From assembly GCA_026225055.1 (NCBI GenBank), contig JAMFSA010000009.1, positions 1 through 64,000 on the forward strand: a DNA stretch of 64,000 nucleotides. The letters are read 5' to 3'. The DNA comes from Mucilaginibacter xinganensis (GTDB lineage Bacteria; Bacteroidota; Bacteroidia; Sphingobacteriales; Sphingobacteriaceae). The translations under genes and the position numbers were made by a program. Below, piece after piece: positions 33,579 through 62,045 of this stretch (its first letter is position 1; the number at the start of each line of letters is the position of its first letter). The notes beneath the pieces were generated by a model. It was given only the letters and a program-made list of their open reading frames with translations. It did no database searches and was not told the origin of the DNA.

Positions 33579-33956
33579 GTTTCCGTTAATTTTATATCTA
33601 TTAATACAAAGTTAGGCATGTGCTTGTCCTATAAACTACCTAACTCGCCAAAGATTTGATGATTCCAGCCAACGCCCTTTTCTTACTTTAAGATGATGTT
33701 ATAAGCCATCCTTTTTACCCACGCCAGCGATAGAAATATGGCAAAGGACATTTAACTGTAACTTGTGGATTTTTGCATAGTTCCACTATTAATACACGAA
33801 CTTACTAATAAAAGAGATAAAGCATATGGCATTTTTTACTGAAACTGTGGCACTTTTACTTCATTTATCATGTCTGCTATCAAATAAACTTTGACTGCTT
33901 TGGTAACAACTTTATGCAAGCACTACGTTAACTTTGTGCCTATCTCAATCAACCCA
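33579..33956. other. Divergent intergenic region (378 bases)
   Basis: It separates the GNAT and mug genes. It contains CAAAGTTA at 33607-33614, which reads TAACTTTG on the minus strand and ends 28 bases before the GNAT ATG, and TAACTTTG at 33929-33936 for mug. Nothing else stands out. Confidence 0.5.
33929..33936 (+). promoter_or_regulatory. Candidate -7 element for mug
   Basis: TAACTTTG matches TAnnTTTG exactly and ends 20 bases before the ATG at 33957. It lies inside the longer frame opened by the TTG at 33891, which argues for the ATG as the real start. Confidence 0.4.
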
Positions 33957-35090: not shown

Positions 35091-35112
35091 AAAACTGACG
35101 GAGGTCACTTTT
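35091..35112. promoter_or_regulatory. CRP/FNR-type dyad upstream of ccoI
   Basis: AAAACTGA-CGGAGG-TCACTTTT: one mismatch from the dyad AAAAGTGA-N6-TCACTTTT found at three other places in this window. Its centre is 78.5 bp upstream of the ccoI ATG. It is the likely target of the receiver-CRP fusion regulator encoded at 47546. A second dyad, GTCAAA-N5-TTTGAC, lies at 35063-35079. Confidence 0.65.
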
Positions 35113-35179
35113 TTATCCGCGACTCATCATTCTTTACATGCGCATAACACGAGAGTTTTGGATATTAAAATATCCAGGG

Positions 35180-37570
35180 ATGATAAAAACTGAAAGCATT
35201 GAAAAAACAAGCTGCTACCATTGCGGCAATGATTGTGAAACTCCGGCTTATGTTGTTGAAGAAAAGCACTTCTGCTGCTTAGGCTGTAAAAGCGTTTTCG
35301 AGGTGTTATCGGCAAGTAATCTTTGTAATTATTACTCCTATAATGATCATCCCGGTGTTAACAGGGCTAAAGTTGATAAACGTTTTGACTATTTAAACGA
35401 GCCGGATATTATAAACGAGCTTATTGATTTTAAGGATGATGATACAACCATTATCACCTTTTATATACCTCATATACATTGCAGCTCGTGCCTGTGGCTA
35501 TTGGAGCAGCTTAACAAAATGAACCACGCCATACATTACAGCAGGGTTGATTTTTTAAAGAAACAACTGAATGTACGCTTTAATCATAATCAACTTACAT
35601 TGCAGCAACTGGTGGAACAATTATATGATATTGGCTACGAACCTGTGATCAGCCTGCAGGATATCATCAAAAAACAAAACACACCCGAGAAAGATAACCT
35701 GGTGTTAAAAATTGCAGTGGCGGGTTTTTGCTTTGGTAATGTGATGCTGTTAAGTTTTCCCGAATATTTTGGGATCTCCGTTTATGAACAAACCTTTAAG
35801 CATTTCTTCGGACTGGCTAATATTGTGTTTGCCTTGCCGGTGGTATTTTACAGCGGCTGGGGATATTTTGTATCAGCATGGCAAAATCTAAAAGTAAAGA
35901 ACCTGAATATTGATTTTCCGCTGGCGCTGGGTATCGCGGTTTTGTTTTTAAGGTCGGTAGTTGATGTGATTATTAATAACGATCCGGGATTTACCGATAC
36001 GCTTTGCGGGCTGGTCTTTTTCCTGCTGATAGGCAAATTTGTACAGCGGAAAACCTATTACCATATCTCTTTTGAGCGCGATTACCGTTCCTTTTTCCCA
36101 GTCGCGGTAAACGTGATAACTGATAATATCGAAAAACCTGTCCCTTTATCACAACTGCAAACAGGGCAACGGGTAGTTATTCGCAATAATGAGATTATCC
36201 CGGCTGATGCTATTTTGCTAAAGGGCCGAGCTATGGTTGATTTTAGCTTTGTTACCGGCGAATCCATCCCCGTAAATAAAACATTGGGTGAAATCATTTA
36301 TGCAGGCGGCCGCCAAACCGGCGAAGCCATTGAACTGGAAGTAGTAAAATCGGTATCACAAAGCTACCTCACCCAACTGTGGAACAACGAGGCATTCACC
36401 CGGCAGAAAAATAATAACAACCAAACATTTAATGAAAAGGTAAGCAAGTATTTCACCGTGGTACTGCTGGCTATTGCATTTGGTTCACTATTGTTTTGGC
36501 TGCCGTTTAATGCGGGACGTGGACTTGCGGCGTTTACCGCAGTACTCATAGTGGCCTGCCCGTGTGCGCTGGCATTAAGCACGCCGTTTACTATGGCAGC
36601 AGCGCTCAGTATTTTCGATCGCAATCTGTTCTATTTGAAAAATACACAGGTAGTTGAGCACATGGCGGCCATAGATACCATCGTGATGGACAAAACCGGT
36701 ACTATCACAAATAGTGACACCAACAATATTAAGTTAAATGGCGAATTAACTGATATCCAGCAGCAACTGATCTACAGCGCATGTACAAATTCTATACACC
36801 CCTTATCGAGGATGATATGTGACTATTTGGGGCAGTTACCAAAGCTTCCGTTAAGAAAGTATGAAGAGATACCCGGTAAAGGAATTGTGGCATGGATCGG
36901 TGATCATGATTTACTGATTGGCAGCAAAGGTCTCATCTTTAATGAAACTGATGAAAAATTCACCAAAACAGCAGTTCATATTTTAATTGATGAGCGTTAT
37001 CTGGGCTATTTTGCAATAGAGCACAATTACCGGGCAGGAATGGAAAATATAACAAACCTCAACCCCGATTATCAGCTATACCTGCTCTCAGGCGATCAGG
37101 ATCATGAAAAGAATGACCTGCTTAGATTCTTTAGGTCAGCAGATCAAATGCACTTTAACCAATCCCCGCAGAGCAAACTGGATTTTATCCGGTCATTACA
37201 AGATAAAGGAAATAAAGTAATGATGATCGGCGATGGATTAAATGACTCCGGCGCGTTAAAACAAAGTGACCTGGGCGTAGCTATCACCGATAATGTAAAT
37301 AATTTTTCACCGGGGAGCGATGCCATTATGGATGGCAGGTCGTTCAAAAAACTGCCTTCATTCTTACGTTTTGCTAAAGATACGGTGAAGATCATTCATT
37401 GTTCATTTGCCATCTCTTTAACCTATAACCTTATTGGTTTAAGCTATGCCGTAACCGGGAAATTATCGCCGCTTATTGCAGCCATACTCATGCCTGTAAG
37501 TACGGTAACAATCATTTCATTCACCACACTGGCAGCTCATTTTGCCGCTAAAAAACGCCACCTGTTATGA
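35180..37570 (+). CDS. ccoI: CcoI/FixI-type copper P-type ATPase for cbb3 oxidase assembly
   Basis: A 796-residue P1B ATPase from the ATG at 35180, which has AGGGA just before it; an upstream ATG at 35138 adds 14 unconserved residues. Residues about 5-45 form the Cys-rich N-terminal domain of CcoI-type pumps (CYHCGNDC, HFCCLGCKSVFEVL). An HMA domain with IHCSSCLWLLEQL follows, then eight predicted helices with the CPC ion motif (VACPCALALSTP), the phosphorylation site MDKTGTI and the hinge GDGLNDSG. CcoI proteins move copper outward to supply the CuB centre of cbb3 oxidase. The gene overlaps ccoS by ATGA and heads the ccoSNOQPGH cluster. Confidence 0.94.
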   Translation: MIKTESIEKTSCYHCGNDCETPAYVVEEKHFCCLGCKSVFEVLSASNLCNYYSYNDHPGVNRAKVDKRFDYLNEPDIINELIDFKDDDTTIITFYIPHIHCSSCLWLLEQLNKMNHAIHYSRVDFLKKQLNVRFNHNQLTLQQLVEQLYDIGYEPVISLQDIIKKQNTPEKDNLVLKIAVAGFCFGNVMLLSFPEYFGISVYEQTFKHFFGLANIVFALPVVFYSGWGYFVSAWQNLKVKNLNIDFPLALGIAVLFLRSVVDVIINNDPGFTDTLCGLVFFLLIGKFVQRKTYYHISFERDYRSFFPVAVNVITDNIEKPVPLSQLQTGQRVVIRNNEIIPADAILLKGRAMVDFSFVTGESIPVNKTLGEIIYAGGRQTGEAIELEVVKSVSQSYLTQLWNNEAFTRQKNNNNQTFNEKVSKYFTVVLLAIAFGSLLFWLPFNAGRGLAAFTAVLIVACPCALALSTPFTMAAALSIFDRNLFYLKNTQVVEHMAAIDTIVMDKTGTITNSDTNNIKLNGELTDIQQQLIYSACTNSIHPLSRMICDYLGQLPKLPLRKYEEIPGKGIVAWIGDHDLLIGSKGLIFNETDEKFTKTAVHILIDERYLGYFAIEHNYRAGMENITNLNPDYQLYLLSGDQDHEKNDLLRFFRSADQMHFNQSPQSKLDFIRSLQDKGNKVMMIGDGLNDSGALKQSDLGVAITDNVNNFSPGSDAIMDGRSFKKLPSFLRFAKDTVKIIHCSFAISLTYNLIGLSYAVTGKLSPLIAAILMPVSTVTIISFTTLAAHFAAKKRHLL

Positions 37571-37734
37571 GCATAATTTACTTTTTGATAGGCTGCAGCA
37601 TATTGCTGGCGCTTATTTTTTTAGGTGCCTTTTTTTGGGCGCAGTGCAGCGGTCAAAATGACGATCTCTACACGCCATCCATGCGCATACTGCTCGATGA
37701 TGAGGATGAGGACGAGCCTGAACCAAGAAAGTGA
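37567..37734 (+). CDS. ccoS: CcoS, cbb3 oxidase maturation protein
   Basis: A 55-residue protein: MSIIYFLIGCSILLALIFLG forms the single membrane helix, followed by AFFWAQCSGQNDDLYTPSMR and an acidic tail rich in Asp and Glu. Size, helix and the 'W(A).(sg)Q.DD...P' segment are those of CcoS/FixS, needed for heme and copper insertion into CcoN. Its ATG overlaps the ccoI stop (ATGA), and ccoN starts 85 bases later. Confidence 0.92.
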   Translation: MSIIYFLIGCSILLALIFLGAFFWAQCSGQNDDLYTPSMRILLDDEDEDEPEPRK

Positions 37735-37819
37735 CAGCAATCATCTTTTCAGCCAACAAGCGTCATTCTGCAGTCAGCCTTAGCGCAATAGTTTTACATC
37801 CATAAACAATACCACTTTT

Positions 37820-39943
37820 ATGCAGCCTGAAAAATTTTACTATGACAATAAGATCGTCCGGAATTTCGGTATCGCCACCGTGATCTGGGGGATCGCCGGG
37901 ATGAGTATTGGCCTCCTGATAGCTATACAATTGTATTACCCTGGAGCAAATATGCACAACCAATACACCACGTTTGGCAGGATACGGCCCCTGCATACCA
38001 ACGCGGTGATATTCGCCTTTGTGGGTAACGCCATTTTTATGGGCGTTTATTACTCGTTACAGCGTTTGCTAAAGGCGCGTATGTTTAGCGATACCCTCAG
38101 CGCTATACACTTTTGGGGCTGGCAATTAATAATAGTCAGCGCCTTAATAACCCTGCCGCTGGGTTTCACCACCTCGCATGAATATGCCGAACTGGAATGG
38201 CCCATTGATATTGCCATCACCATTATATGGATAGTATTTGGTTGGAATATGTTCGGCACTATACTTAAACGCCGCGAAAGGCACCTGTATGTAGCCATAT
38301 GGTTTTACATCGCTACGTTTGTAACCATAGCGGTGCTTCACATTGTAAATTCTGTTGAAATACCGGTTACCTTTTGGAAAAGTTACATGGTTTATGCCGG
38401 TGTGCAGGATGCGCTGGTGCAGTGGTGGTATGGGCATAATGCGGTAGCATTCTTTCTTACTACACCATACTTGGGTATGATGTATTACTTTCTGCCTAAA
38501 ATGGCAAACAGGCCCATCTACTCCTACAAACTAAGTATACTGCACTTTTGGGCGTTGATATTTATCTATATATGGGCCGGCCCGCACCATTTATTATATA
38601 CCACATTGCCGGGCTGGGCACAATCATTAGGTGTTGCATTTTCTATAATGCTGATAGCGCCAAGCTGGGGTGGTATGATCAACGGTTTGCTAACCCTCCG
38701 CGGCGCGTGGGATAAAGTACGTGACGAACCTGTACTGAAATTTATGGTGGTTGGCTTAACGGCCTATGGTATGGCCACCTTTGAAGGCCCTATGCTGGCA
38801 CTTAAACAGGTTAATGCCATAGCCCACTTTACCGACTGGATCATAGCACACGTACATATGGGTGCTCTCGGCTGGAACGGCTTTTTAACCTTCGCCATAT
38901 TATACTGGCTGATACCACGCATATACAGAACAGAGTTATACTCTAAAAAACTGGCATCGTTCCACTTTTGGATCGGTACGCTGGGAATATTATTCTATGT
39001 GATACCATTATACTGGGCAGGCTTTACCCAGGGATTGATGCTGAAGGAATTTACACCCGAAGGTATTCTGAAATACAATTTCCTGGAAACCGTATTGCGC
39101 ATTATACCCATGTGGGTAACCCGCTCACTGGGTGGTAGCATGTATTTAACTGGTGTGTTGGTTATGGCTTATAACTTAACCCGTACCGCCTTACAAGGTA
39201 AACTATTGGCAAATGAGCCTGCACAAGCTATGCCTTTAGCACCTGTAAGCACCATGGAAAGAGAAAACAGCTGGCACCGCAGACTTGAGCGCAGGCCAAT
39301 ACAGTTAATGATAGCCGCCTTGCTGGTGATATTGATCGGATCTTTTGTTGAGCTGATGCCAACGTTAACCATAGCATCAAACATACCAACCATTGCCAGT
39401 GTAAAACCATATACCCCGCTGGAATTGCAGGGGCGCGACCTTTTCATCAGAGAAGGTTGTATGGGCTGCCACTCGCAAACAGTAAGGCCATTCCGGTCTG
39501 AAACGGAACGTTACGGGCAATATAGTAAAGCTGGTGAATTTGTGTATGACCACCCTTTCCTGTGGGGATCAGAACGAAAAGGTCCGGACCTGGCAAGGAT
39601 TGGTGGTAAATACCCTAACGCGTGGCATTATAATCACCTGATGGATCCACGCTTGATGTCGCCGGGCAGTATTATGCCGGATTACGACTGGCTCATCACC
39701 CAGGACCTGGATACTACCACCACCATCGCCAAAATAAATGCGATGCGAAAAATTGGCGTTCCGTATCCCGCAGGTTATGAATACAAAGCCAACCACGACC
39801 TGGATTTACAAGCAAAAGCCATAGCGGCTGATCTGGCGCAGAACCACATCAAAGTTTCAAGCCGCAAGGAGATAATCGCCATTACAGCTTACCTGCAAAG
39901 GTTAGGTCAGGATATTAAAGCAGATAAAACAACCTCTAAATAA
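37820..39943 (+). CDS. ccoN: Fused CcoN-CcoO, cbb3 cytochrome c oxidase subunits I and II
   Basis: A 707-residue fusion. Residues 1 to about 470 are the catalytic heme-copper subunit CcoN: RPLHTNAVIFAFVGNAIF (heme b ligand His), WWYGHNAVAFFL (CuB His), GPHHLLYTTLPGW (CuB His pair) and IAHVHMGALGWNG (heme ligands). After a further helix (about 495-515) comes the CcoO mono-heme domain with EGCMGCHSQTVRPF and MPDYDWL. It reduces oxygen to water at very low oxygen and pumps protons. N-O fusion is common in Bacteroidota and needs no frameshift here. Confidence 0.96.
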   Translation: MQPEKFYYDNKIVRNFGIATVIWGIAGMSIGLLIAIQLYYPGANMHNQYTTFGRIRPLHTNAVIFAFVGNAIFMGVYYSLQRLLKARMFSDTLSAIHFWGWQLIIVSALITLPLGFTTSHEYAELEWPIDIAITIIWIVFGWNMFGTILKRRERHLYVAIWFYIATFVTIAVLHIVNSVEIPVTFWKSYMVYAGVQDALVQWWYGHNAVAFFLTTPYLGMMYYFLPKMANRPIYSYKLSILHFWALIFIYIWAGPHHLLYTTLPGWAQSLGVAFSIMLIAPSWGGMINGLLTLRGAWDKVRDEPVLKFMVVGLTAYGMATFEGPMLALKQVNAIAHFTDWIIAHVHMGALGWNGFLTFAILYWLIPRIYRTELYSKKLASFHFWIGTLGILFYVIPLYWAGFTQGLMLKEFTPEGILKYNFLETVLRIIPMWVTRSLGGSMYLTGVLVMAYNLTRTALQGKLLANEPAQAMPLAPVSTMERENSWHRRLERRPIQLMIAALLVILIGSFVELMPTLTIASNIPTIASVKPYTPLELQGRDLFIREGCMGCHSQTVRPFRSETERYGQYSKAGEFVYDHPFLWGSERKGPDLARIGGKYPNAWHYNHLMDPRLMSPGSIMPDYDWLITQDLDTTTTIAKINAMRKIGVPYPAGYEYKANHDLDLQAKAIAADLAQNHIKVSSRKEIIAITAYLQRLGQDIKADKTTSK

Positions 39944-39951
39944 TTACGCGC

Positions 39952-40143
39952 ATGTTTGATCAATTTGTAAAAGACGTTTCGGGAAAAGAAATGTACCTAA
40001 TTTTCTCACTATGGATATTCCTGGTATTCTTCGTGGTAGTATCCATCCTACTTTATATCACCAAAAAACAACATGTGGATCATATGAGCGCCCTGCCACT
40101 GGAGGATAGCGATATAGATTCAACACAAACCTTACAACTATGA
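39952..40143 (+). CDS. ccoQ: CcoQ-like small membrane subunit
   Basis: A 63-residue protein with one helix (YLIFSLWIFLVFFVVVSILL) and a short polar tail. It is too short to identify by motif. Its size, topology and place between ccoNO and ccoP match CcoQ, a non-catalytic subunit that stabilises the cbb3 complex. Its stop overlaps the ccoP ATG by four bases. Confidence 0.75.
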   Translation: MFDQFVKDVSGKEMYLIFSLWIFLVFFVVVSILLYITKKQHVDHMSALPLEDSDIDSTQTLQL

Positions 40144-41066
40144 AATATTTACGTGCAATAGTATTGTTTAGCTTATGCATAGGAACCATACCCGCATTTG
40201 CTGAAACTGATGACCACAGTATGATCCCACCTGACATACAAAACTACATTGGTTATGGTGCCATAATAGCTGTGCTGATATTGTTTGTTATTGTGATGCT
40301 GGTTTTGCTGCGCACTTTCAGGGTTTTAACCCGGCTGGTATTAAAATCAGAAGGTTATACCAATGAGCAGATAGCCGCTGAAATGTACCCTGCCAAAGTA
40401 AAAAAGGCAGCTAAACCCAAAGGCGAGGTTTGGAATAAATTGCTTGAACTTAGGCCGCTCTCCGAAGAAAAAGAGATCCTGATAGCGCATGATTACGATG
40501 GCATACAGGAACTGGATAACCCGATCCCCGGCTGGTTTATGTACCTGTTTTATATCACAATAATCTTTGCGGTGGGTTATTTGCTGAATTATCATGTGTT
40601 CCATATCGGCCAGTTACAGTATGAAGAATATAAAACCGAAATGGTGCAGGCCGATATCGCCAAAAAACTTTACCTGAGCAAAGCCGCTAACCAGGTTGAT
40701 GAAAACACGGTTAAACTGGTACACGATCCCACAGTTATAGCATCCGGCGAAGCCATATTTAAACAAAACTGCGTGCCCTGCCACGGCGATCACGCGCAGG
40801 GCGTGGTTGGGCCTAACTTAACAGATGATTACTGGCTGCATGGCGGCAAAATAAACGACCTGTTCAAAACAGTGAAATACGGTGTGTTGACCAAAGGGAT
40901 GCCAACGTGGGAGAAGGTTTTATCGCCCAAACAAATATCAGATGTGGTTAACTATGTAAAATCATTACATGGCTCAAACCCGGCTAACCCCAAAACGCCG
41001 CAGGGTGTTAAAGAAACCGATGATGCGGCAGCTTCATCGGTAAAAAAAGGTAATAGTAACAGCTAA
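40140..41066 (+). CDS. ccoP: CcoP-like cbb3 oxidase cytochrome c subunit, single heme
   Basis: A 308-residue protein: signal-like helix at the start (IVLFSLCIGTIPAFA), a second helix (YGAIIAVLILFVIVMLVLLR), the CcoP-type DNPIPGWFMYLFYITIIFAV segment, and one cytochrome c domain with NCVPCHGDHAQGVVGPNL and a Met ligand in KGMPTWEKVL. Proteobacterial CcoP has two CXXCH hemes; only one is present, as in other Bacteroidota. It passes electrons to CcoO/CcoN. Confidence 0.92.
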   Translation: MKYLRAIVLFSLCIGTIPAFAETDDHSMIPPDIQNYIGYGAIIAVLILFVIVMLVLLRTFRVLTRLVLKSEGYTNEQIAAEMYPAKVKKAAKPKGEVWNKLLELRPLSEEKEILIAHDYDGIQELDNPIPGWFMYLFYITIIFAVGYLLNYHVFHIGQLQYEEYKTEMVQADIAKKLYLSKAANQVDENTVKLVHDPTVIASGEAIFKQNCVPCHGDHAQGVVGPNLTDDYWLHGGKINDLFKTVKYGVLTKGMPTWEKVLSPKQISDVVNYVKSLHGSNPANPKTPQGVKETDDAAASSVKKGNSNS

Positions 41067-41274: not shown

Positions 41275-42438
41275 GTGTTTTGGCCGCAGGATATTTTCAT
41301 CTTCATGATAGCTTCGCTGGTGTTTGTAGTATGCGTGGTTCTCTTCACCATTGCGTTTGGCCGGATATTTTGTGGCTGGATCTGTCCGCAAACCATATTT
41401 ATGGAAATGGTTTTCCGCCGGATAGAAATTGCAATTGAGGGCGATGCCAATAAACGTAAAAAGCTGGATGCCGGACAATGGAGTAATGAAAAGATCTGGA
41501 AGAAAAGCCTGAAGCACTCCATTTTCATTATCATCTCTTTTTTAATTGCCAATACTTTTCTGGCTTATATTATCGGTAGTCAGGGTTTAATCAAGATCAT
41601 TATTGAACCCATTAACCAGCATTGGGTTGGCTTTTTTAGCATCTGGGTTTTCACCATTGTGTTTTATCTGGTTTACAGCCAGGTACGCGAGCTGGTTTGT
41701 ACGGTGATATGCCCCTATGGCAGGTTGCAAGGGGTGCTAATGGATGAGCATACCTTAGTTGTTGCTTATAACGATGTTAGAGGAGAGCCACGCGGCAAAC
41801 TGGATAGAACAGGACTGCTACAAAAAGGCGATTGTGTGGATTGCAGCTTATGCGTAGCCGTTTGCCCTACGGGGATAGACATACGCAAAGGCACACAAAT
41901 GGAGTGCATTAACTGTACTGCCTGTATTGATGCCTGCGATGAGGTGATGGATAAGATCCATAAACCACGCAACCTGATCGGCTATTTTTCTGAAGATATG
42001 ATCCGCGCTAAAAAGAAGCCTTCTTTTAATATAAGAATGATGGGTTACAGCGGTGTTATAGCCCTGTTGCTGGTGGTACTATCCTATTTTATTTTTAGCC
42101 GCACCGATATGGATATTACCGTAATGCGCAGCGCGGGCATGTTATACCAGGAGCAGCCGAATGGCTACATCAGCAATATTTATAATGCTGATATCACCAA
42201 CAAAGCCAATACTAACAGGCCGGTTACGATAAGGGCTGAAGATCCGGCAATCAAAATAAGATACATACAGGCACCCGGTATTGTGGCTAAAGGTAGCGAT
42301 GTAAAAACTGTGTTTTTTGTGCTGATACCTGCTAATAAGTTGCAGTCGCTAAAAACTGATGTGCGTTTGCAGCTCATATCGGGCAACAAAATTATTGAAA
42401 CCGTTACTACAACGTTTGTAGGGCCATTAAACAATTAA
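41275..42438 (+). CDS. ccoG: CcoG/FixG polyferredoxin-like protein, main part after the stop
   Basis: 387 residues in the same frame as the fragment before the TAG, beginning GTG TTT TGG (VFWPQDIFIF). It holds several membrane helices, GRIFCGWICPQTIFMEM, VICPYGRLQGVL, and two 4Fe-4S motifs (CVDCSLCVAVCPTGID and CINCTACIDACD), plus a C-terminal immunoglobulin-like domain. CcoG acts in cbb3 oxidase assembly, probably as a copper or iron reductase. Independent translation from the GTG would give a protein lacking the first helix; no ribosome-binding sequence is obvious, though reinitiation right after the TAG is conceivable. Treat it as a probable pseudogene until the TAG is confirmed. Confidence 0.85.
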   Translation: MFWPQDIFIFMIASLVFVVCVVLFTIAFGRIFCGWICPQTIFMEMVFRRIEIAIEGDANKRKKLDAGQWSNEKIWKKSLKHSIFIIISFLIANTFLAYIIGSQGLIKIIIEPINQHWVGFFSIWVFTIVFYLVYSQVRELVCTVICPYGRLQGVLMDEHTLVVAYNDVRGEPRGKLDRTGLLQKGDCVDCSLCVAVCPTGIDIRKGTQMECINCTACIDACDEVMDKIHKPRNLIGYFSEDMIRAKKKPSFNIRMMGYSGVIALLLVVLSYFIFSRTDMDITVMRSAGMLYQEQPNGYISNIYNADITNKANTNRPVTIRAEDPAIKIRYIQAPGIVAKGSDVKTVFFVLIPANKLQSLKTDVRLQLISGNKIIETVTTTFVGPLNN

Positions 42439-43564: not shown

Positions 43565-43582
43565 AAGTGATGCCAATCACTT
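43565..43582. promoter_or_regulatory. CRP/FNR-type dyad upstream of the small membrane protein gene
   Basis: AAGTGA-TGCCAA-TCACTT, a perfect inverted repeat with 6-base spacer, centred 79.5 bp upstream of the ATG at 43653. Same motif and nearly the same distance as at ccoI, the kinase gene and the D-LDH gene. Confidence 0.7.
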
Positions 43583-43652
43583 TTTTAGCAGTTTGAGATC
43601 ATGGTACAGGCAGCTAAATAGCGGCATTTTTGATTCATAAAATTTATCAATT

Positions 43653-44032: not shown

Positions 44033-45049
44033 ATGCGCAAAGGAATATTATTAGTAAGCCTCGGGACACCGGAGGGCCTATCGGTTAAAGATGTAAGCAA
44101 ATACCTGACGGAATTTCTGATGGATCCCCGGGTAATAGATATCAACCCTGTATCACGTTTTTTACTGGTACGGGGTTTAATTGTACCGTTCCGGAGCAGA
44201 ACTTCTTTCAAGCTTTATCAGCGTATCTGGAATAAAGAAAGCGGTTCACCATTATTGCATTTCAGCAGGTTGCAGCAGCAATTGTTAAAGATTGAATTAG
44301 GGCCTGAATACCATGTGGAACTAGCTATGCGTTACCAATATTCCTCCATCCGATTGGCATTGCATAAGTTAAGATCTGCTATGGTCGATAGCATCCACGT
44401 GATACCACTGTTCCCGCAATACTCATCAGCAACAACAGGATCTATCATTGCTAAGATTATGGATGAAGTAAGGAATTGGGAAACAATTCCTAAAATTTCC
44501 TTTACCAGCTCATTTCATGATAATGGGTTAATGATAAAAGCGTTCGCTGCCAATGGGCGAAAATATCTACCCGAAAGTTATGATCATATCTTATTCAGCT
44601 TCCACGGATTACCGCAACGACAATTGATCAAATGCGATCATTCCAAAAGCCAGTGCCTTAAATCTGCTGATTGCTGTTCTGTATTAACTGAAAGAAACTG
44701 TAATTGTTATTCGGCGCAATGCCATCATACCGCTGCATTAATAGCAGATGAATTAAATATCCCGAAGGATAAGTATACGATTTGCTTTCAATCCAGGCTG
44801 GGTAAAGCCCCGTGGATACAGCCATATACTTCGGCAGTTATTCAACAGCTTGCTAAAGAAGGAAAGAAAAGAGTGTTGGTTTTTTGTCCGTCGTTTGTTG
44901 CTGATTGTCTCGAAACCATTTATGAAATAGCTGAAGAATACCACCAGGAATTTGTAAATGCCGGTGGCGAACATTTACAATTGGTTGAAAGCTTAAACGG
45001 CTCACCGATATTCATCAGCGCGTTAAAGGAAATGATCCAGGCAAATTAG
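44033..45049 (+). CDS. hemH: Ferrochelatase
   Basis: A 338-residue ferrochelatase, inserting iron into protoporphyrin or coproporphyrin in the last steps of heme synthesis. Signatures: LLVSLGTPEG, FLMDPRVIDIN, HVIPLFPQYSSATTGS, catalytic His in LFSFHGLPQRQL and Glu in SFVADCLETIYEI. The stretch after the active-site His has eight Cys in about 33 residues (CDHSKSQC, SADCC, NCNCYSAQC), more than needed for a metal-free enzyme and suggestive of an iron-sulfur site. It follows the small membrane protein gene by 32 bases and faces hemN. Confidence 0.94.
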   Translation: MRKGILLVSLGTPEGLSVKDVSKYLTEFLMDPRVIDINPVSRFLLVRGLIVPFRSRTSFKLYQRIWNKESGSPLLHFSRLQQQLLKIELGPEYHVELAMRYQYSSIRLALHKLRSAMVDSIHVIPLFPQYSSATTGSIIAKIMDEVRNWETIPKISFTSSFHDNGLMIKAFAANGRKYLPESYDHILFSFHGLPQRQLIKCDHSKSQCLKSADCCSVLTERNCNCYSAQCHHTAALIADELNIPKDKYTICFQSRLGKAPWIQPYTSAVIQQLAKEGKKRVLVFCPSFVADCLETIYEIAEEYHQEFVNAGGEHLQLVESLNGSPIFISALKEMIQAN

Positions 45050-45067: not shown

Positions 45068-46426
45068 TTATACAGCCATACTAAAAAGCTCACTGGCAGG
45101 CAACTTCGCCCACAATCGCGCATCCAAGGCCATACAAATATTACGCAGGAAACGTTTGCCCAAAGGTGTTACCCTCAATTCCCATGAATTTATGTTGATC
45201 AGGCCGTCATCTTCAAATGATTTAAGCCTTAATACGCCCTCTAATAACGCGATACACGGCTCTATATGCTGGTTCCATATCGTATAGCCATTACACATTA
45301 TTTCAGTGATATGCTTGCGCAGAATCAGGTCCTCCCCTGTTAAAATATGGCCTTTTATTACCGGCAGGTCGTGCTTTACAAGGCTTACATATTCTTCAAC
45401 AGTCTTTACATTTTGGGCAAAGCCATACCAGGCATCGCTGATAGCTGAAACTCCCAAACCAATTAATAACTGCGTATGCTGATGGGTATAGCCCATAAAG
45501 TTGCGGTGCAGGTTGCCGGTACATTCAGCCAAACTTAATGTATCCTCAGGCAGCGCAAAATGATCCATCCCGATCTCTTTATAACCGTGTAGCTGAAGTA
45601 AGTCGCGGCCGGTTTGATAAAGCCTGGTTTTTGTCTGCGCATCCGGCAGATCTCTTTCTGTAAACATCCTTTGCCCCGGTTTTACCCATGGCACATGTGC
45701 GTAGCTATAATAAGCAATCCTGTCGGGCTGCAGGCCGGTTACAAGGTGCATGGTGTTTATTAAGCCATCCATCGTTTGTAAAGGCAGACCGTAGATCAAA
45801 TCGTAATTTATGGAGGTATATCCTATCTGCCTTGCCAGTTGGGTTACCAATCTTACCTGTTCATATGTTTGGTGCCTGTTGATGATTTTCTGCACAGCAG
45901 GGTCAAAATCCTGGATACCTAAGCTCAACCTTTTAAATCCCAGTTTAAACAATATTTTTAAATGATCGGCGGTTGTATTGGCAGGATGTGCCTCAAAGCT
46001 GAATTCGGCATAAGGATGAACTAAAGAATCTTTTAGTAAACCTTGTATTAATTTCTGTAGATTTTCCGCACTAAAAAATGTGGGCGTGCCACCGCCTAAA
46101 TGTATTTCTTTGATCACCGGGATATCACCCAGTATAGCACGGTATCTCTCCCACTCCAGCAATACAGCATTAATATAAGGCTCTTCTACCCGGTGATTCT
46201 TAGTTATCCGGGTGTTACAACCGCAATAAGTGCAAAGGCTTTCACAAAACGGCAAATGCACATACAGGCTGATCCCGTCCTTATTATTGCTTTCAGTAAA
46301 TGACCGTTTTACTGCCGTTTCCCATTTACTGGTACTAAACAGGTCGTTATCCCAATAAGGCAAGGTAGGGTAACTGGTATAGCGCGGCGCAGCCACATTA
46401 TATTTTTGAGCCAATTGCTGATACAT
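45068..46426 (-). CDS. hemN: Oxygen-independent coproporphyrinogen III oxidase (radical SAM)
   Basis: A 452-residue HemN. The radical SAM cluster motif is in YVHLPFCESLCTYCGCNT, with the fourth nearby Cys typical of HemN; KEIHLGGGTPTFFSAENLQK is the SAM-binding GGGTP motif, and the HemN C-terminal domain (YTIWNQHIEP onward) is present. It converts coproporphyrinogen III to protoporphyrinogen IX without oxygen, which fits a microaerobic regulon. It starts 21 bases after the D-LDH stop on the same strand and is likely co-transcribed. Confidence 0.94.
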   Translation of the reverse strand: MYQQLAQKYNVAAPRYTSYPTLPYWDNDLFSTSKWETAVKRSFTESNNKDGISLYVHLPFCESLCTYCGCNTRITKNHRVEEPYINAVLLEWERYRAILGDIPVIKEIHLGGGTPTFFSAENLQKLIQGLLKDSLVHPYAEFSFEAHPANTTADHLKILFKLGFKRLSLGIQDFDPAVQKIINRHQTYEQVRLVTQLARQIGYTSINYDLIYGLPLQTMDGLINTMHLVTGLQPDRIAYYSYAHVPWVKPGQRMFTERDLPDAQTKTRLYQTGRDLLQLHGYKEIGMDHFALPEDTLSLAECTGNLHRNFMGYTHQHTQLLIGLGVSAISDAWYGFAQNVKTVEEYVSLVKHDLPVIKGHILTGEDLILRKHITEIMCNGYTIWNQHIEPCIALLEGVLRLKSFEDDGLININSWELRVTPLGKRFLRNICMALDARLWAKLPASELFSMAV

Positions 46427-46447: not shown

Positions 46448-47461
46448 TTATTTGAGTTGAACTGCCCGGCAATTTTTGGCACATACACATGCCTTGCCTA
46501 CACATTTATCCTGTTGCCACATATCAAGATTATAAATGGTTTGGTTTGCAATTTCCTGCAAGGCCTCGCGGGTAAGGTAAGCCTGGTGCGGCGTTATGAT
46601 AACGTTTTCACGTGCAAGCAAATTCCGGATCAATGGGTCTTTATAAATATCATGTTGATGGTCTTCAAAAAACAGCCCTTTCTCATACTCGTAAACATCC
46701 ATAGCCAGGTTGCCAATCTTTCCGCTTTCAAGTGCCAGCAGTAAATCACTCGTTTTAATGATGGCGCCCCTTGATGTGTTGATGAGCATTACGCCATTTT
46801 TCATTTTATCAAGCGTTGCTTTTTTAATAAAATGCCGGGTATCGGGAGTTAAGGGAATATGCAGCGATATAATATCTGATGATGCCAGCAGATCATCAAG
46901 TTCAGCACGTAGAATGTTATCATCGCCGGCAGGCAAAAATTCATCATAGCCTATAACTTTACAGCCAAAGCCTTTAAATATTTCTGCCGTGGCCATGCCT
47001 GTTTTACCCAGGCCGATGATGCCGACTGTTTTGCCGGAGAAGTTGAATCCTATCAATCCGTCATTCCTGAAATCGAACAAATGACTGTTATGGTCGGCCT
47101 TAATTAATTTGCGGTTAAGTGCCATGGCCAGTGCTACAGCATGTTCGGCAATGGCCTGCGGCGAATAGGATGGTACATTTGATAGTTTAATGGCATATTT
47201 AGCGGCAGTGTCCTTGTCAATATGATCGGTGCCTACCGAGCGGGTTACAATATACCTGATGCCCAGTTCAGCCAGTTTATCAATTACGCTTGCCGAAACA
47301 TCATCATTGGTAAATACAATAATCGCGTCTTTCCCTTCAGCATAAATGGCTGTTTCTATATTAAGCGGGTTGGAGATCAGCGTAATATCATGCTTCTTCT
47401 GGTTGGCTTTAGCCAGAAATTCTTTTTCGAAAGGTTTTATACTGTATGCAACTGCTTTCAT
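46448..47461 (-). CDS. ldhA: D-lactate dehydrogenase-like 2-hydroxyacid dehydrogenase
   Basis: A 337-residue NAD-dependent D-2-hydroxyacid dehydrogenase: VGIIGLGKTGMATAEIF is the dinucleotide site, MLINTSRGAIIKT holds the catalytic Arg region, and ITPHQAYLTREAL the catalytic His. It resembles fermentative D-lactate dehydrogenase (LdhA): pyruvate plus NADH to D-lactate. The C-terminus has an unusual Cys-rich extension, KCVGKACVCAKNCRAVQLK, perhaps a metal or cluster site. A CRP/FNR dyad lies 81.5 bp upstream and hemN follows directly, pointing to low-oxygen expression. Confidence 0.88.
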   Translation of the reverse strand: MKAVAYSIKPFEKEFLAKANQKKHDITLISNPLNIETAIYAEGKDAIIVFTNDDVSASVIDKLAELGIRYIVTRSVGTDHIDKDTAAKYAIKLSNVPSYSPQAIAEHAVALAMALNRKLIKADHNSHLFDFRNDGLIGFNFSGKTVGIIGLGKTGMATAEIFKGFGCKVIGYDEFLPAGDDNILRAELDDLLASSDIISLHIPLTPDTRHFIKKATLDKMKNGVMLINTSRGAIIKTSDLLLALESGKIGNLAMDVYEYEKGLFFEDHQHDIYKDPLIRNLLARENVIITPHQAYLTREALQEIANQTIYNLDMWQQDKCVGKACVCAKNCRAVQLK

Positions 47462-47531
47462 GCGTAACTATGTTTATTGTAAACAAAGCTATTGCAAACA
47501 GTACCGGTTTATAATGAGGAGCATCAGTGTG

Positions 47532-47553
47532 AAAAGTGATTGAGATCAGTTTT
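47532..47553. promoter_or_regulatory. CRP/FNR-type dyad upstream of the D-LDH gene
   Basis: AAAAGTGA-TTGAGA-TCAGTTTT: one mismatch from the perfect dyad. It is centred 81.5 bp upstream of the ATG at 47461 and overlaps the end of the regulator gene, so it would serve an internal promoter for the D-LDH and hemN genes. Confidence 0.6.
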
Positions 47554-48595
47554 TCATTTTTGCCAGCCGCTCATGGTTTAAAATGTTAATAACACTGCCT
47601 TTTTTTTCTATCAGGCCTTCGTCTTTAAAGTCGGCTAATGTGCGGCTTACGGTTTCAGTTGCCATACCTGCCATAGCAGCCAGGTCATCTCGTGAGATCT
47701 TTATTATATCTGTTCCGGCCTGGTGTTTTGACAAACGTACAATCGCATCCGCCATTCTTTTTCTAACGGAATGATACGCCAATTGTAATAACTGCTCTTC
47801 TTTTTCCCTGATGTTGTTTGATAGCAGTTTGATAAACTCACGCGCTATTTCGGGGTATAAATTTAAAAGCTCATCCAACTGATCTTTCGGGATGAGGCAC
47901 AGCGTGCTGTCTTCAACAGCGGTGGCAGTATCTGAAAAGGCTTCGTTTGATAACAGCGCATGAATACCGAGATAATCATCTTTAGTATACATTCCGGTCA
48001 TTAGTTCGCGGCCATCCTGCGCCAGTTTAATGGTTTTTACTTTACCGCTTAGTACCAGGTATAACCCATTGCCTTTATCGCCATCATAGTAGATCACCTG
48101 GTTCTTTTTAAAGTGACGGGTTTTCCTATCGCCAATTACTTTTTTAAGTTCATTAAGGCCATTGTTTTTTGCTATTAATAAGCCAAGGCTGTCAAGCGAT
48201 TTGCTGTAAAACTGTTCCTGCTGTTCTTTTTTATTTAGCCTGCTTTCAATGGCGTTCAGCAATTCAATATCATCAAACGGTTTGGTTAGATAATCATCGG
48301 CACCCATTTCCATGCCTTTGCGCAGGTCGACCCGCTCGGCTTTTGCGGTCAGGAAAATGAACGGTATAGCGGCCATCTGTGGGTTTTTATTCAGCATGTA
48401 TAAAACGCCATAGCCATCCAGTTCAGGCATCATAATATCGCATAAAATAATATCAGGTGAGTTTTTCAGCGCAAGGTCTACCCCTATTTTTCCGTTTTTA
48501 GCAGAAAATACTGTATAGCCTGCAAGCTCCAGTATCTCAACAATATTTTCCCTGATATCATCGCTATCTTCAATGATCAGTGCTTTTTTACTCAT
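47546..48595 (-). CDS. Response regulator fused to a CRP/FNR-type DNA-binding protein
   Basis: A 349-residue fusion. Residues 1-125 are a receiver: acidic pocket IIEDSDD, phosphoryl Asp53 in DIILCDIMMPELDG, Thr83 and Lys105 (DDYLTKPFDD). Residues about 150-270 are a cNMP-type effector fold (GNGLYLVLSGKVKTIKLAQD). A CRP/FNR winged helix (about 290-345) has the recognition helix MATETVSRTLADF, with the Glu/Ser/Arg layout of FNR and FixK. The four N-terminal Cys of FNR are absent, so phosphorylation, not its own cluster, probably controls it. The ATG overlaps the kinase stop (ATGA). It looks like FixJ and FixK in one chain. Confidence 0.93.
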   Translation of the reverse strand: MSKKALIIEDSDDIRENIVEILELAGYTVFSAKNGKIGVDLALKNSPDIILCDIMMPELDGYGVLYMLNKNPQMAAIPFIFLTAKAERVDLRKGMEMGADDYLTKPFDDIELLNAIESRLNKKEQQEQFYSKSLDSLGLLIAKNNGLNELKKVIGDRKTRHFKKNQVIYYDGDKGNGLYLVLSGKVKTIKLAQDGRELMTGMYTKDDYLGIHALLSNEAFSDTATAVEDSTLCLIPKDQLDELLNLYPEIAREFIKLLSNNIREKEEQLLQLAYHSVRKRMADAIVRLSKHQAGTDIIKISRDDLAAMAGMATETVSRTLADFKDEGLIEKKGSVINILNHERLAKMKN

Positions 48596-49779
48596 GCTAA
48601 TGAAAATGTAATGGTGAACAATGTTCCTTTGTTTAACTGGCTATTGAAATCAACTTTGCCATTCATCAAACTGGCATATCGGGCAACAATATTTAACCCC
48701 AAACCTGTACCCGGGATGTTGCCCGTATTATGCGCCCTGAAAAAGGCCTCGAACAAATGTTTCTGGTCTGTTTCAGGTATGCCAATGCCGTTATCCTTTA
48801 CGGTTACTATGCAGGTGTGATCATTTATTTCAGTATTGAATTCTATAAATGTGTTTTCGCCAGAATATTTTATCGCGTTAGCAATAAGATTGATGATACA
48901 GTTCTTCAACAGGTTTGGGTCTAAATTTACGATGCTGGCAGTGCCCGTATGCTGATATATGATGTTTTGATTTTGCTTGGCGATCAGCTGCATTTCTTCG
49001 GTGATCTCTTCTGCCAGTTTTACCAGATCAAAGCTGATAAAGGTAGGCTCTACCTTTCCGGCTTCCAGTTTATCCAGTGAAAGGAAATCATTAAGAATAG
49101 CAGTGAGATTACCTACCGCGTTTTTTATCTTACCCACATGTTTACTGATATTCTCATTATCAAAAGGCTGTGCATATTTATCGATCAGCGATGCCGATAA
49201 TTGTACAGCGCTAAGCGGGGTGCGGAACTCATGTGAAGCCATCGAAACAAACCGGCTTTTTAATTGACCGAGTTCTTTTTCTTTTTCCAATGATTGGCTA
49301 ACTTCTTCTTTTGCTTCTTCAAGCGCAGTAACGGTATCTTTTAACCAGATGGTTCGTTTTTCAACCTCTTCTTCCAGATGGGTGGCGTATTCTTTAAGCT
49401 GATCTTCCGCCTCTTTTTCACGGCTGATATCATGAATAAAGCCCGTATATATTTTTCTCCCTAAAAATTGCACTTCGCTAACACCCAATTTGAACGGAAA
49501 GGTACTGCCATCTTTCTTTAGTCCAATAACCTCACGGCCGATACCGATGATATGTGCTTGCCCTGTATGCTGATACCTATTGAGGTAACTATCATGTTCC
49601 TGGCGATATGGCTGGGGCATTAGCATGGAAATATTATGCCCCACAACTTCCTGCGGCGTATACTGGAACAGTTTGCAGGCAGACGGATTTATGGTTTCGA
49701 TGTTTCCCCTTTCATCAATAGTGATGATACCATCAATAGCATTTTGTATAATGGCATTTAAAAGGGCGGCATTTTCCAT
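48592..49779 (-). CDS. FixL-like heme-PAS oxygen-sensing histidine kinase
   Basis: A 395-residue soluble kinase from the ATG at 49779; the in-frame start at 49842 would add a 21-residue segment with no PAS character. The PAS domain (residues about 1-125) closely matches rhizobial FixL: SMLMPQPYRQEHDSYLNRYQ, with His62 where FixL has its proximal heme ligand, and HIIGIGREVIGLKKDGSTFP, with Arg82 where FixL senses bound oxygen. A coiled linker leads to the HisKA box (His183 in SMASHEFRTPLS) and an ATPase domain with DNGIGIPETD and GTGLGLNIVARY. It has no membrane helix. It should phosphorylate the receiver-CRP partner when oxygen is low. Confidence 0.92.
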   Translation of the reverse strand: MENAALLNAIIQNAIDGIITIDERGNIETINPSACKLFQYTPQEVVGHNISMLMPQPYRQEHDSYLNRYQHTGQAHIIGIGREVIGLKKDGSTFPFKLGVSEVQFLGRKIYTGFIHDISREKEAEDQLKEYATHLEEEVEKRTIWLKDTVTALEEAKEEVSQSLEKEKELGQLKSRFVSMASHEFRTPLSAVQLSASLIDKYAQPFDNENISKHVGKIKNAVGNLTAILNDFLSLDKLEAGKVEPTFISFDLVKLAEEITEEMQLIAKQNQNIIYQHTGTASIVNLDPNLLKNCIINLIANAIKYSGENTFIEFNTEINDHTCIVTVKDNGIGIPETDQKHLFEAFFRAHNTGNIPGTGLGLNIVARYASLMNGKVDFNSQLNKGTLFTITFSLA

Positions 49780-49822
49780 GATCTGTATAGCTATATCGCA
49801 AATATGGGTAAAGCAGGTTAAA

Positions 49823-49831
49823 CAAAATGTA
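49823..49831 (-). promoter_or_regulatory. Candidate -7 element of the kinase-regulator operon
   Basis: TACATTTTG on the minus strand is TAnnTTTG with one extra T. If the start of transcription is about 6 bases further on, the upstream CRP/FNR dyad is centred near -41, the position for a class II activator. Confidence 0.4.
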
Positions 49832-49846
49832 ATTATTTTCAATCAA

Positions 49847-49868
49847 AAAAGTGACTTTTATCACTTTT
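49847..49868. promoter_or_regulatory. Perfect CRP/FNR-type dyad upstream of the FixL-like kinase gene
   Basis: AAAAGTGA-CTTTTA-TCACTTTT, 8-bp perfect arms with a 6-base spacer, centred 78.5 bp upstream of the kinase ATG at 49779. This is the best copy of the motif and suggests autoregulation. It lies in the gap shared with the divergent LytS-type kinase gene at 50020. Confidence 0.75.
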
Positions 49869-50019: not shown

Positions 50020-51081
50020 ATGACCCTTGCTAAATTGAAAAAACTGTTACTTTCCTTACATTTTTTGACATTCCTGGGCATGATGGTTTTGGCAATTCTC
50101 CCCTTTACCTGGCCGGTGCACTTACCCGGGGTATTCTGGGTTAAGGAATGTATAGCTTTACTGTGCTGGGCCGGGCTCTTTTACCTGAATTTGTATGTCT
50201 TAGTTCCCAGGATCCTTTATAATGGCCGGGGCTTGCTTTTTGTATTGACCATTTTTATAGGTGTCTTAATAATGGTTCTTTTCAACCGGGCTATTGACGC
50301 TATTTTTAATGTCCCGGCTTTAATGGAAAAGGTGTTTGATGGTACCCATAGACATATCATTTATAAAAATAGCCCGGCAGTGAATTCCGGTATCATCGTT
50401 ATCACCATGATCATCTTTGGGATCAGTTCTATTATCGGCATTACAAAAAAACTGAATGCCGACAAAGCAAACGGGCAAAACGCTGAAAAAGAAAAGGTAA
50501 GTACGGAGCTGGCATTTCTGAAAGCACAAATCAACCCTCATTTTTTCTTCAATATCCTCCACACCATTTACGCCTTAACAGATACAAATATTAAATCGGC
50601 AAGGGAATCTATTTATACGCTTTCGCACATGATGCGCTATGTACTTTATGATACAAAGAACGATTTTACGACCCTGGAAAAAGAAATTGAATTTGTACAG
50701 GATTATATTAACCTGATGCAGCTACGGCTTCCCGACCAGGTGCAAATCATATTTGAGAAACCCAAAGTACTAACCAATATCCAACTGGCCCCTATGTTAT
50801 TTTTACCTTATATTGAAAATGCTTACAAGCACGGTATCAGCAACATATACCCCAGTTATATATTTATAGGCATTACACAAATAGAAAATACGCTGCGACT
50901 GGAGGTACGAAATTCTATATTTGACGAGCATGCCGCGAATTTAGAGGATAGCAATGGCATAGGGCTGGTTAACACCCGCCGCAGGTTGGACCTCATATAT
51001 CCCGGCAAATACATTTTGAAAGAAGAACGCGATGAAAAAGGCCGTGAATTTACAATACAATTAATGTTTGTGCAGTTATGA
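50020..51081 (+). CDS. LytS/YehU-type sensor histidine kinase
   Basis: A 353-residue kinase with four predicted N-terminal helices (FLTFLGMMVLAILPFTWPVH to IIVITMIIFGISSIIGITKK) and no separate sensor domain. The His_kinase domain has the phosphorylatable His in LKAQINPHFFFNILHTIYAL and an ATPase part with LPYIENAYKHGI and NGIGLVNTRRRL. It overlaps the LytTR regulator gene by ATGA. The pair likely controls genes nearby, for example the TonB receptor downstream. The signal is unknown. Confidence 0.92.
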   Translation: MTLAKLKKLLLSLHFLTFLGMMVLAILPFTWPVHLPGVFWVKECIALLCWAGLFYLNLYVLVPRILYNGRGLLFVLTIFIGVLIMVLFNRAIDAIFNVPALMEKVFDGTHRHIIYKNSPAVNSGIIVITMIIFGISSIIGITKKLNADKANGQNAEKEKVSTELAFLKAQINPHFFFNILHTIYALTDTNIKSARESIYTLSHMMRYVLYDTKNDFTTLEKEIEFVQDYINLMQLRLPDQVQIIFEKPKVLTNIQLAPMLFLPYIENAYKHGISNIYPSYIFIGITQIENTLRLEVRNSIFDEHAANLEDSNGIGLVNTRRRLDLIYPGKYILKEERDEKGREFTIQLMFVQL

Positions 51082-51830
51082 TGATCCCTTGTATTGCTGT
51101 TGATGACGAGCCCATAGCGCTGAACTTGATTTGCTCCTATATTGAGCAGGTGCCTTTTTTGCATTTGGAAGGCCGTTTCTCCAATGCTGTTGCAGCTTTG
51201 CAGGCTATTCATGAAAACCCATCAATTAAACTGGCTTTTTTAGATATCCGTATGGCACACCTGAGCGGCGTGGAACTGGCCAGGATCGTTAATCAATCTG
51301 AAAACAAACAGAAACTGAGGGTAATATTTACTACGGCATTTGATCAATATGCGGTAGAAAGTTACAAGGTTGAGGCGCTGGATTATCTTTTAAAACCCTT
51401 TAATTTTGTTGACTTTTCAAAGGCTGCTGCTAAAGCTCTGGAATATTTCTCCTTGAGGGCGCATGTGCTCCCCCCGAAACAATCTGTTGTTTCAGTTTTA
51501 CCTGTCGAAAAAGAGTACATCTATTTAAAGGTAGATTATCAATTAGTAAAGGTAGATTTGAACGACATCCTATATATAGAAGGCTTGAAGGATTATGTAA
51601 AAGTTTTTGTTGCTAATGAAACCAAACCTTTACTTACCTTAACCAGCTTAAAAGTACTGGAAGAAAAGTTACCATTAAAAGATTTTATGCGTATCCACCG
51701 GTCATTTATCGTCTCCCTTGAAAAGATCAAGTCTGTCACCAGAAACTCCGTCCAGATTGGTGAAACCGTTATTGCTGTAACCGAGCAGTATAAGGAACCG
51801 TTCCTGCAATTCATAAGCAAATGGGGTTAA
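51078..51830 (+). CDS. LytTR-family response regulator
   Basis: A 250-residue regulator. The receiver (1 to about 120) has IAVDDEPIALNLI, the phosphoryl Asp in KLAFLDIRMAHLSGVELA, and EALDYLLKPF. The LytTR DNA-binding domain (about 145-250) has YIYLKVDYQLVKVDLNDILY, IEGLKDYVKVFV and MRIHRSFIVSLEKI. It pairs with the LytS-type kinase whose stop it overlaps. A TonB receptor and DUF4249 lipoprotein follow after 199 bases. Confidence 0.93.
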   Translation: MMIPCIAVDDEPIALNLICSYIEQVPFLHLEGRFSNAVAALQAIHENPSIKLAFLDIRMAHLSGVELARIVNQSENKQKLRVIFTTAFDQYAVESYKVEALDYLLKPFNFVDFSKAAAKALEYFSLRAHVLPPKQSVVSVLPVEKEYIYLKVDYQLVKVDLNDILYIEGLKDYVKVFVANETKPLLTLTSLKVLEEKLPLKDFMRIHRSFIVSLEKIKSVTRNSVQIGETVIAVTEQYKEPFLQFISKWG

Positions 51831-61728: not shown

Positions 61729-62045
61729 GAAGTCAAAACGTTATCTGATGTTTCAAAGGGTTAGATAATTGTTCAAAGGTAAACCTATTTATATTCTTCA
61801 TCAAACCAGAGGGTTTTACATTCGTCTGTTTAATGTCATATACTAAAATGGACAACAGAATAGTTGTTAAAAATTAGGAAATCGTTTTATCCATTTGAAT
61901 TCTACATGAATTACCGCGCAAAAATACTGTAGCATATTTGTAATATTTCGGCGTCAAGTTCAACAAAAATATGTAAATTCTGTTACTAAAGAGTAACAGT
62001 GCCACAGGTGATCTTCCCCGGTTTTAAAAGACAAAAAAAACGCTA
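61729..62045. other. Intergenic stretch of 317 bases
   Basis: It contains the mprF promoter near its left end. I find no gene, terminator or repeat in the rest. Confidence 0.6.
61774..61805 (-). promoter_or_regulatory. Bacteroidota-type promoter for the mprF-virJ-virJ operon
   Basis: On the minus strand TTTG (61805-61802), 20 bases, then TACCTTTG (61781-61774): both elements and the spacing match the primary-sigma consensus exactly. It lies 45 bases before the ATG at 61728. Confidence 0.7.

Follow-up and report, generated by a model that had tools for sequence, protein, structure and literature searches.

The stretch of DNA analyzed here, referred to below as the window, comprises the first 64,000 nucleotides of contig JAMFSA010000009.1 of Mucilaginibacter xinganensis (Bacteroidota; assembly GCA_026225055.1) and encodes, on its minus strand, a PAS sensor histidine kinase together with a protein in which a receiver is joined to a CRP/FNR-type regulator (REC-CRP). 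The stop codon of the kinase and the start codon of the fusion have the sequence ATGA in common, and both open reading frames (ORFs) were confirmed at the positions given in an earlier note made from the sequence alone, which had described the two genes as an overlapping pair beside cbb3 oxidase and heme genes. We estimate, with a probability of roughly two in three, that this pair is a two-protein oxygen switch that would drive the cbb3, heme and fermentation genes, as well as its own operon, through palindromic boxes in their promoters. The pair consists of the following elements:

48592..49779, minus strand: PAS sensor histidine kinase with a FixL-type PAS (395 residues from the ATG; phospho-acceptor His183 by motif)
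49372..49779, minus strand: PAS region as modeled with AlphaFold2 (residues 1-136, with His62, Arg68 and Arg82; FixL is the top match in Foldseek and VIA)
47546..48595, minus strand: REC-CRP, the receiver-CRP/FNR fusion (349 residues; Asp53; recognition helix TETVSRTLADF; Cys233 at the place of an FNR cysteine)

In the kinase, the PAS domain (residues 7-118) is accompanied by HisKA and HATPase_c, and the fusion is made up of Response_reg (6-117), cNMP_binding (160-245) and HTH_Crp (280-346), Pfam matches that bear out the placement of receiver and CRP/FNR activator in a single chain.

The PAS sensor and the receiver-CRP fusion

The PAS domain is of the FixL type by both sequence and fold, in agreement with the FixL-type residues recognized in the earlier note. 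The closest solved structures by sequence are those of FixL (8js5, 1d06 and 1dp6; E-values of 4e-29 to 9e-29, without gaps), followed by DosP, and a Foldseek search with the AlphaFold2 model (mean predicted local distance difference test score of 75, with 67 for residues 61-70 and 60 for residues 71-80) placed FixL at ranks 1-20 and DosP at ranks 21-32. In the VIA structural alignments, model residues 14-119 correspond to residues 152-257 of 2vv6 (105 aligned) and residues 15-119 to residues 153-257 of 1xj6 (104 aligned). Because the offset is 138 at both ends and the sequence alignment is ungapped, His62, Arg68 and Arg82 are equivalent to BjFixL residues 200, 206 and 220, which we take to be the heme ligand (200) and two pocket arginines (206 and 220). 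The structure-based alignment on which the earlier note had staked its proposal beforehand thus puts His62 and Arg82 at the FixL places 200 and 220. Among the structural matches, PDB titles name R220A and a proximal arginine, and all three residues are invariant in 33 aligned rows, which represent close relatives (71-99% identity). The kinase scores 156 bits with the NCBIfam equivalog sens_FixL_Rhizob, below its cut-off of 850 bits, the best stretch covering residues 7-135. The PAS domain is likely a heme oxygen sensor.

The other protein is less rhizobial than its earlier description as a FixJ-FixK fusion implied. The domain search of the fusion detected no LuxR/GerE-type helix-turn-helix, the output of FixJ; the output consists of cNMP_binding and HTH_Crp, both above the Pfam cut-offs, which places the protein in the CRP/FNR superfamily. 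Among the 60 matches listed, the receiver ranks closest to a hybrid two-component protein and to PleD, RpaA and PhoP. In the PDB, the CRP half reaches 83 bits with FNR chains but 58 bits with FixK2; in NCBIfam it matches the Fnr subfamily at 103 bits (cut-off 228) and FixK (Caulobacter) at 81.5 bits (cut-off 300), in both cases below the cut-off. The reading as a literal fusion of FixJ and FixK is therefore rejected, and the protein looks like a parallel solution rather than the rhizobial proteins in compressed form.

FixK/FNR-type recognition residues, as noted earlier, are present: the FNR recognition helix has the form E-x-x-S-R, and TETVSRTLADF of the fusion fits it, the S being replaced by I in many other fusions. 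Glu314 and Arg318 do not vary among 12 diverse rows, and the same holds for Asp53 and Lys105 of the receiver in 32 aligned rows of close relatives (again 71-99% identity). The fusion contains just two cysteines, Cys52 and Cys233, so the earlier statement that FNR cysteines are lacking holds for the FNR-type [4Fe-4S] set, which was looked for in this protein and is absent, but not for every single residue. Cys233 aligns with Cys115 of a stand-alone relative (L200), which in turn aligns with the FNR-chain cysteine in VCEIP, presumably the fourth cluster ligand, and may, judging from this alignment, be a remnant of an ancestor with an iron-sulfur (Fe-S) cluster.

Boxes and promoter elements in the Mucilaginibacter genome

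The region delineated in the earlier note extends up to position 49868, which is the end of a perfect 22-base-pair (bp) palindrome (49847-49868) that its text does not mention. TGAY-N4-RTCA palindromes located before five operons of the window, each with a -7-like element at a fixed distance of 51 bp, are new here. The window contains six matches to TGAY-N4-RTCA, which is also the core of the FNR site, and five of them have an element resembling TAnnTTTG exactly 51 bp from the box centre on the gene side, in front of ccoI, ccoNO, orf43653-hemH, the dehydrogenase gene and the kinase gene; the sixth is at 32382. The distance from the -7-like elements to the start codons is 19-23 bases in all five promoters:

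49852..49863, minus strand: box TGATAAAAGTCA of the kinase/REC-CRP promoter, centre at about -63.5
49799..49806, minus strand: -7-like element CATATTTG of the kinase/REC-CRP promoter, one mismatch to TAnnTTTG, exactly 51 bp from the box centre
47537..47548, minus strand: box TGATCTCAATCA of the D-2-hydroxyacid dehydrogenase promoter, beginning in the TGA stop codon of REC-CRP
47484..47491, minus strand: -7-like element TAGCTTTG of the dehydrogenase promoter, exact
37732..37743, plus strand: box TGACAGCAATCA upstream of ccoNO
37789..37796, plus strand: -7-like element TAGTTTTA of ccoNO, one mismatch
35096..35107, plus strand: box TGACGGAGGTCA upstream of the CcoI-like P-type ATPase gene
35153..35160, plus strand: -7-like element GAGTTTTG of the CcoI-like ATPase gene, one mismatch
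43568..43579, plus strand: box TGATGCCAATCA upstream of orf43653 (115 residues) and hemH
43625..43632, plus strand: -7-like element CATTTTTG of orf43653/hemH, one mismatch

With the longer pattern GTGAY-N4-RTCAC (at most one mismatch), the window yields nine matches compared with 3.5 expected, a number that was reached in none of 100 shuffles. Two further matches to the combined pattern of box and -7 element (33607-33671 and 61774-61838), each with the mismatch in the box, were taken as chance. An alternative TTG start of the kinase, 63 bases 5' of the ATG at 49779, was set aside because the predicted -7 element (49806-49799) is situated between TTG and ATG, which favors the ATG.

The genes surrounding the pair confirm its location next to cbb3 and heme genes, with ccoNO, ccoG, hemH and hemN passing the NCBIfam cut-offs and ccoP falling below:

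35138..37570, plus strand: CcoI-like heavy-metal P-type ATPase (general P-type model above the cut-off, copper-specific models below theirs)
37820..39943, plus strand: ccoN-ccoO fusion of the cbb3 oxidase (NCBIfam, above cut-off)
40140..41066, plus strand: ccoP (NCBIfam match below the model's cut-off)
41275..42438, plus strand: ccoG (NCBIfam, above cut-off)
44033..45049, plus strand: hemH, ferrochelatase (NCBIfam, above cut-off)
45068..46426, minus strand: hemN, oxygen-independent coproporphyrinogen III oxidase (NCBIfam, above cut-off)
46448..47461, minus strand: D-2-hydroxyacid dehydrogenase, D-lactate-type (specific models below cut-off)

The ccoI ORF is perhaps annotated too long (35138-35180), the predicted promoter lying inside it, in which case Met15 at 35180 would be the real start. 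Divergently from the FixL-type pair, a His_kinase-family protein and a LytTR regulator form another pair (50020-51830).

The 6.64-Mb genome contains only three exact AAGTGAY-N4-RTCACTT sites, two in the window (43565 and 49849) and one before a second kinase. The latter belongs to a second kinase/fusion pair (L002, G000:C245:22000-40000), the two kinases being 76% identical. Sites with up to two mismatches (77 per strand compared with 64 in the reversed control) are mostly chance, so the ten with at most one mismatch were used; five of the ten are located outside both pair regions, two of them before genes (one for a YceI-like protein at C39 and one at C232) and two within genes. The gene at C232, encoding a 593-residue protein (L098:4459-6240), follows an exact box and -7 element at -41.5. 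Genome-wide, box plus -7 element (at most one mismatch) was found 40 times with the box at -63.5 and 28 times with the box at -41.5, compared with 14 in the reversed control in each case; 17 of the 40 and 9 of the 28 are on the contigs of the two pairs. Among the genes behind these matches we recognized, by eye, those for Usp, an alcohol dehydrogenase, two BON-type proteins and a YceI-type protein. The 64-kb contig of the second pair holds ten of the 40 matches and, again by eye, genes for Usp, BON and YceI proteins, a P-type ATPase and a second D-2-hydroxyacid-type dehydrogenase beside the pair, and looks like a low-oxygen island.

Spread of the pair and geometry of its promoters

The earlier note left aside whether this arrangement had been characterized in Bacteroidota; it is widespread in the window's class. 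Full-length fusions are encoded in 56 of 395 Bacteroidota genomes, all 56 belonging to this class, and seven more genomes match in the receiver only. The ccoNO gene is present in 51 of the 56 fusion genomes and in 264 of the 395 overall. A gene with a PAS match is located directly 5' on the same strand in 55 of 62 fusion loci, and in a second sample of 80 loci from named records (Mucilaginibacter, Pedobacter, Flavobacterium, Dyadobacter, Spirosoma, Chitinophagaceae and others) 75 have an adjacent kinase; cco genes are found inside the compared stretch in 24 of the 62 and 35 of the 80 loci. The two samples overlap (L039 is L293) and include near copies (such as L072/L073 and L086/L088), and the counts are therefore of loci rather than of independent events. 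Three loci (L063, L067 and L071) encode the fusion without an adjacent kinase, a match to the kinase of the window being located at the opposite end of the cco cluster. A search of the open literature, which did not extend to subscription papers and preprints, found no paper dealing with a receiver-CRP fusion or with FixL-type sensors in Bacteroidota.

A FixL-like PAS is present in 56 of 121 scored partner kinases from the two samples, and all 56 keep His62 and Arg82. The kinases were sorted by alignment and filter, five (L235, L239, L252, L093 and L229) being added by their FixL score (at least 79, compared with at most 68 for the rest), and nine kinases without any PAS score above 20 were left out of the 121. 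In the FastTree phylogenies of the fusion and of the kinase core, 51 FixL-type rows and two others form one group with a support of 99, and the PAS type changes six times, compared with about 42 and 39 times in shuffles, so that the type of PAS follows the pair. The kinase tree covers the 116 of 130 rows with a clear H-box, and L092, L093 and L074 have long branches in the FastTree runs.

The box is located upstream of the operon in 9 of 19 FixL-type loci and 26 of 43 other loci (null means 0.40 and 0.80), and before 46 of 80 operons in the named set. By gene, it precedes ccoI in 7 of 11 cases, the dehydrogenase in 9 of 12, ccoNO in 5 of 13, hemN in 4 of 15 and two types of Usp in 3 of 6 and 2 of 7; no box was found upstream of ccoP (0 of 5), ccoG (0 of 20) or sulE (0 of 18). 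An exact CRP or FNR site can be rejected, given that only the core TGAY-N4-RTCA is conserved class-wide and the outer base varies, being G, C or A more often than T among the sites printed.

Of 183 boxes in 314 regions, 65 have TAnnTTTG (at most one mismatch) at a distance of 51 bp from the box centre and 58 have it at 29 bp, compared with a largest count of 8 at any offset in 200 shuffles, which keep base content only. The same two distances stand out when the set is thinned to 149 boxes with less than 60% identity (51 bp in 52, 29 bp in 45; largest shuffled count 8). The combination of box and -7 element at either distance was found in 28 of 41 dehydrogenase, 23 of 36 ccoNO, 11 of 25 ccoI, 29 of 116 kinase and 6 of 45 hemN regions. 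Since a -7 box of this type lies at -12 to -5 (PMC9723704), the box centres fall at -63.5 and -41.5. Many sites are arranged in tandem: 22 bp downstream of boxes at -63.5, an average of 6.65 of 8 positions agree with the box (background 2.55), and two dimers may sit in tandem because -63.5 and -41.5 are 22 bp apart. The position -41.5 is the class II position for CRP and FNR, an activator position for the family, and the placement of the boxes suggests that the protein bound there is an activator.

Candidate readers of the box and the proposed oxygen switch

In the mechanism that we propose, loss of oxygen from the heme would activate the kinase, with the deoxy state being the active one, and phosphate would pass from His183 to Asp53 of the fusion. 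The phosphorylated fusion would dimerize, bind TGAY-N4-RTCA boxes and, from -63.5 and -41.5, activate the genes for the cbb3 oxidase, heme synthesis and fermentation along with its own operon. Several observations weigh against this scheme. Position 68 (BjFixL 206) varies among the 56 FixL-like PAS domains, and the PAS of the other 65 among the 121 scored kinases is more distant, so that oxygen is not necessarily the signal for such pairs in general. The box is upstream of the operon in 9 of the 19 FixL-type loci, and of the 116 kinase regions 59 have a box and 29 combine it with a -7 element at one of the two distances. The CRP half of the structural model of the fusion is of low confidence. 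Furthermore, the box is not peculiar to fusion genomes: it lies upstream of ccoN in 28 of 32 fusion genomes but also in 17 of the 19 fusion-less genomes of the class (null means 0.84 and 0.59), and both distance sets include the 19 ccoN regions from the latter. Outside the window's class, no box was found upstream of ccoN in nine genomes (null mean 0.30). Conservation of the box alone therefore does not name the protein that binds it, and with the box set aside as proof of the fusion, the argument rests on genomes in which the fusion is the sole candidate and on the sites in the own genome.

The candidates bear on a rival explanation, namely that another CRP/FNR protein works the boxes in this genome and the pair controls something else. 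A stand-alone CRP/FNR protein with the pattern C-x2-C-x45-C-x52-C is encoded in all 16 fusion-less genomes covered by the survey (G076, G111 and G194 being left out of the 19), in 15 of them no more than 7 kb from ccoN; cysteines one, two and four are spaced like FNR C20, C23 and C122, and it is possible that these proteins are an FNR variant with one cluster ligand moved. The same protein is found near ccoN in all eight examined fusion genomes of family f4 and elsewhere in fusion genomes G166, G072 and G146. The own genome, too, has other CRP proteins, two of them rich in cysteine (L210 and L211) in a different pattern. However, the four-Cys pattern is absent from all 11 stand-alone matches in the four genomes of the own genus that were searched (five of the 11, L210, L211, L213, L214 and L216, are Cys-rich in another pattern), and each of the three exact sites in the own genome is close to one or the other copy of the pair. 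In five genomes (G122, G002, G037, G269 and G355), a search with the CRP half of the fusion retrieves nothing but the fusion itself at E≤1e-10, although this threshold does catch the CRP relatives of the own genome (5e-27 to 4e-21); all five keep the ccoN box, four with a -7 element at 28-30 or 50-52 bp. The fusion therefore probably reads the box where the four-Cys protein is missing, and we consider the involvement of another reader in this genome improbable. Depending on the lineage, the same box is probably used either by an Fe-S-type regulator or by the kinase-fusion pair. The four-Cys proteins recorded here (L189-L208, L219, L220, L223 and L225-L228) are mostly encoded beside ccoN.

Alternatively, the pair might control the boxes while its PAS domain reports a signal other than oxygen, such as redox state or nitric oxide or carbon monoxide on the heme, or lacks heme altogether. 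The more distant PAS domains on the same kinase-fusion pair are compatible with this possibility; as 60 of the 65 share the His column, His alone is no mark of heme, and two (L044 and L250) have lost it, with Y and Q instead, inside otherwise FixL-leaning proteins. PDB titles also indicate that nitric oxide and carbon monoxide bind the heme domain of FixL. The similarity of the whole domain is nonetheless first to FixL and DosP, and the neighboring cbb3 and heme genes carry the box, so that we regard a non-oxygen signal as unlikely, if somewhat less so than another reader. Less probable than either is that the fusion is a repressor or is active when unphosphorylated, considering that -41.5 is an activator position for the family and the boxes spare the predicted start sites. 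Moreover, cbb3 and heme genes are upregulated in Flavobacterium psychrophilum when oxygen is limiting, for which the available part of the text names no regulator (PMC9723704).

The proposed two-protein oxygen switch shares features with several known systems. DosP, the second-best relative of the PAS domain, is a heme oxygen sensor that is not a histidine kinase. With FNR, the fusion shares the E-x-x-S-R helix, the TGAY-N4-RTCA core and, in Cys233, a cysteine at an FNR place, but it has a receiver where FNR has its N-terminal cysteine set. As in the rhizobial FixL-FixJ-FixK cascade, a FixL-type PAS on a histidine kinase is combined with a CRP/FNR-family activator, with cbb3 and heme genes as neighbors or targets, and the box has a TGA-N6-TCA core, as does the FixK/FnrN consensus TTGANCNNGATCAANG (PMC4999443). 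Unlike in that cascade, receiver and activator form one chain with no FixJ-type output, the outer base of the box is, among the printed sites, less often T than G, C or A, and the promoters are of the TAnnTTTG type. A FixL-type sensor with a non-FixJ regulator also occurs in the hFixL-FxkR-FixK system of Rhizobium leguminosarum, as described in PMC7888657, although the regulator there still works by inducing fixK. The logic is like that of rhizobia and would involve one transcriptional step fewer, the parts being other than FixJ and FixK; the loss of this step, suggested already in the earlier note, is plausible because the boxes stand directly at the oxidase genes.

The papers searched contain little on how aerobic Bacteroidota sense falling oxygen, and the present analysis supplies a candidate sensor, regulator, DNA box and promoter geometry, each of which is testable. 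We consider it an even bet that aerobic Bacteroidota share a single low-oxygen promoter design, with TGAY-N4-RTCA at -63.5 and -41.5, often in tandem, before TAnnTTTG, which would be read, depending on the lineage, either by a stand-alone Fe-S-type relative of FNR whose cysteines are unusually spaced or by a heme kinase with a receiver-FNR fusion descended from such a protein, oxygen sensing having moved to the kinase with the promoters unchanged. In this case, a single promoter code seems to have been taken over by a different kind of oxygen sensor.

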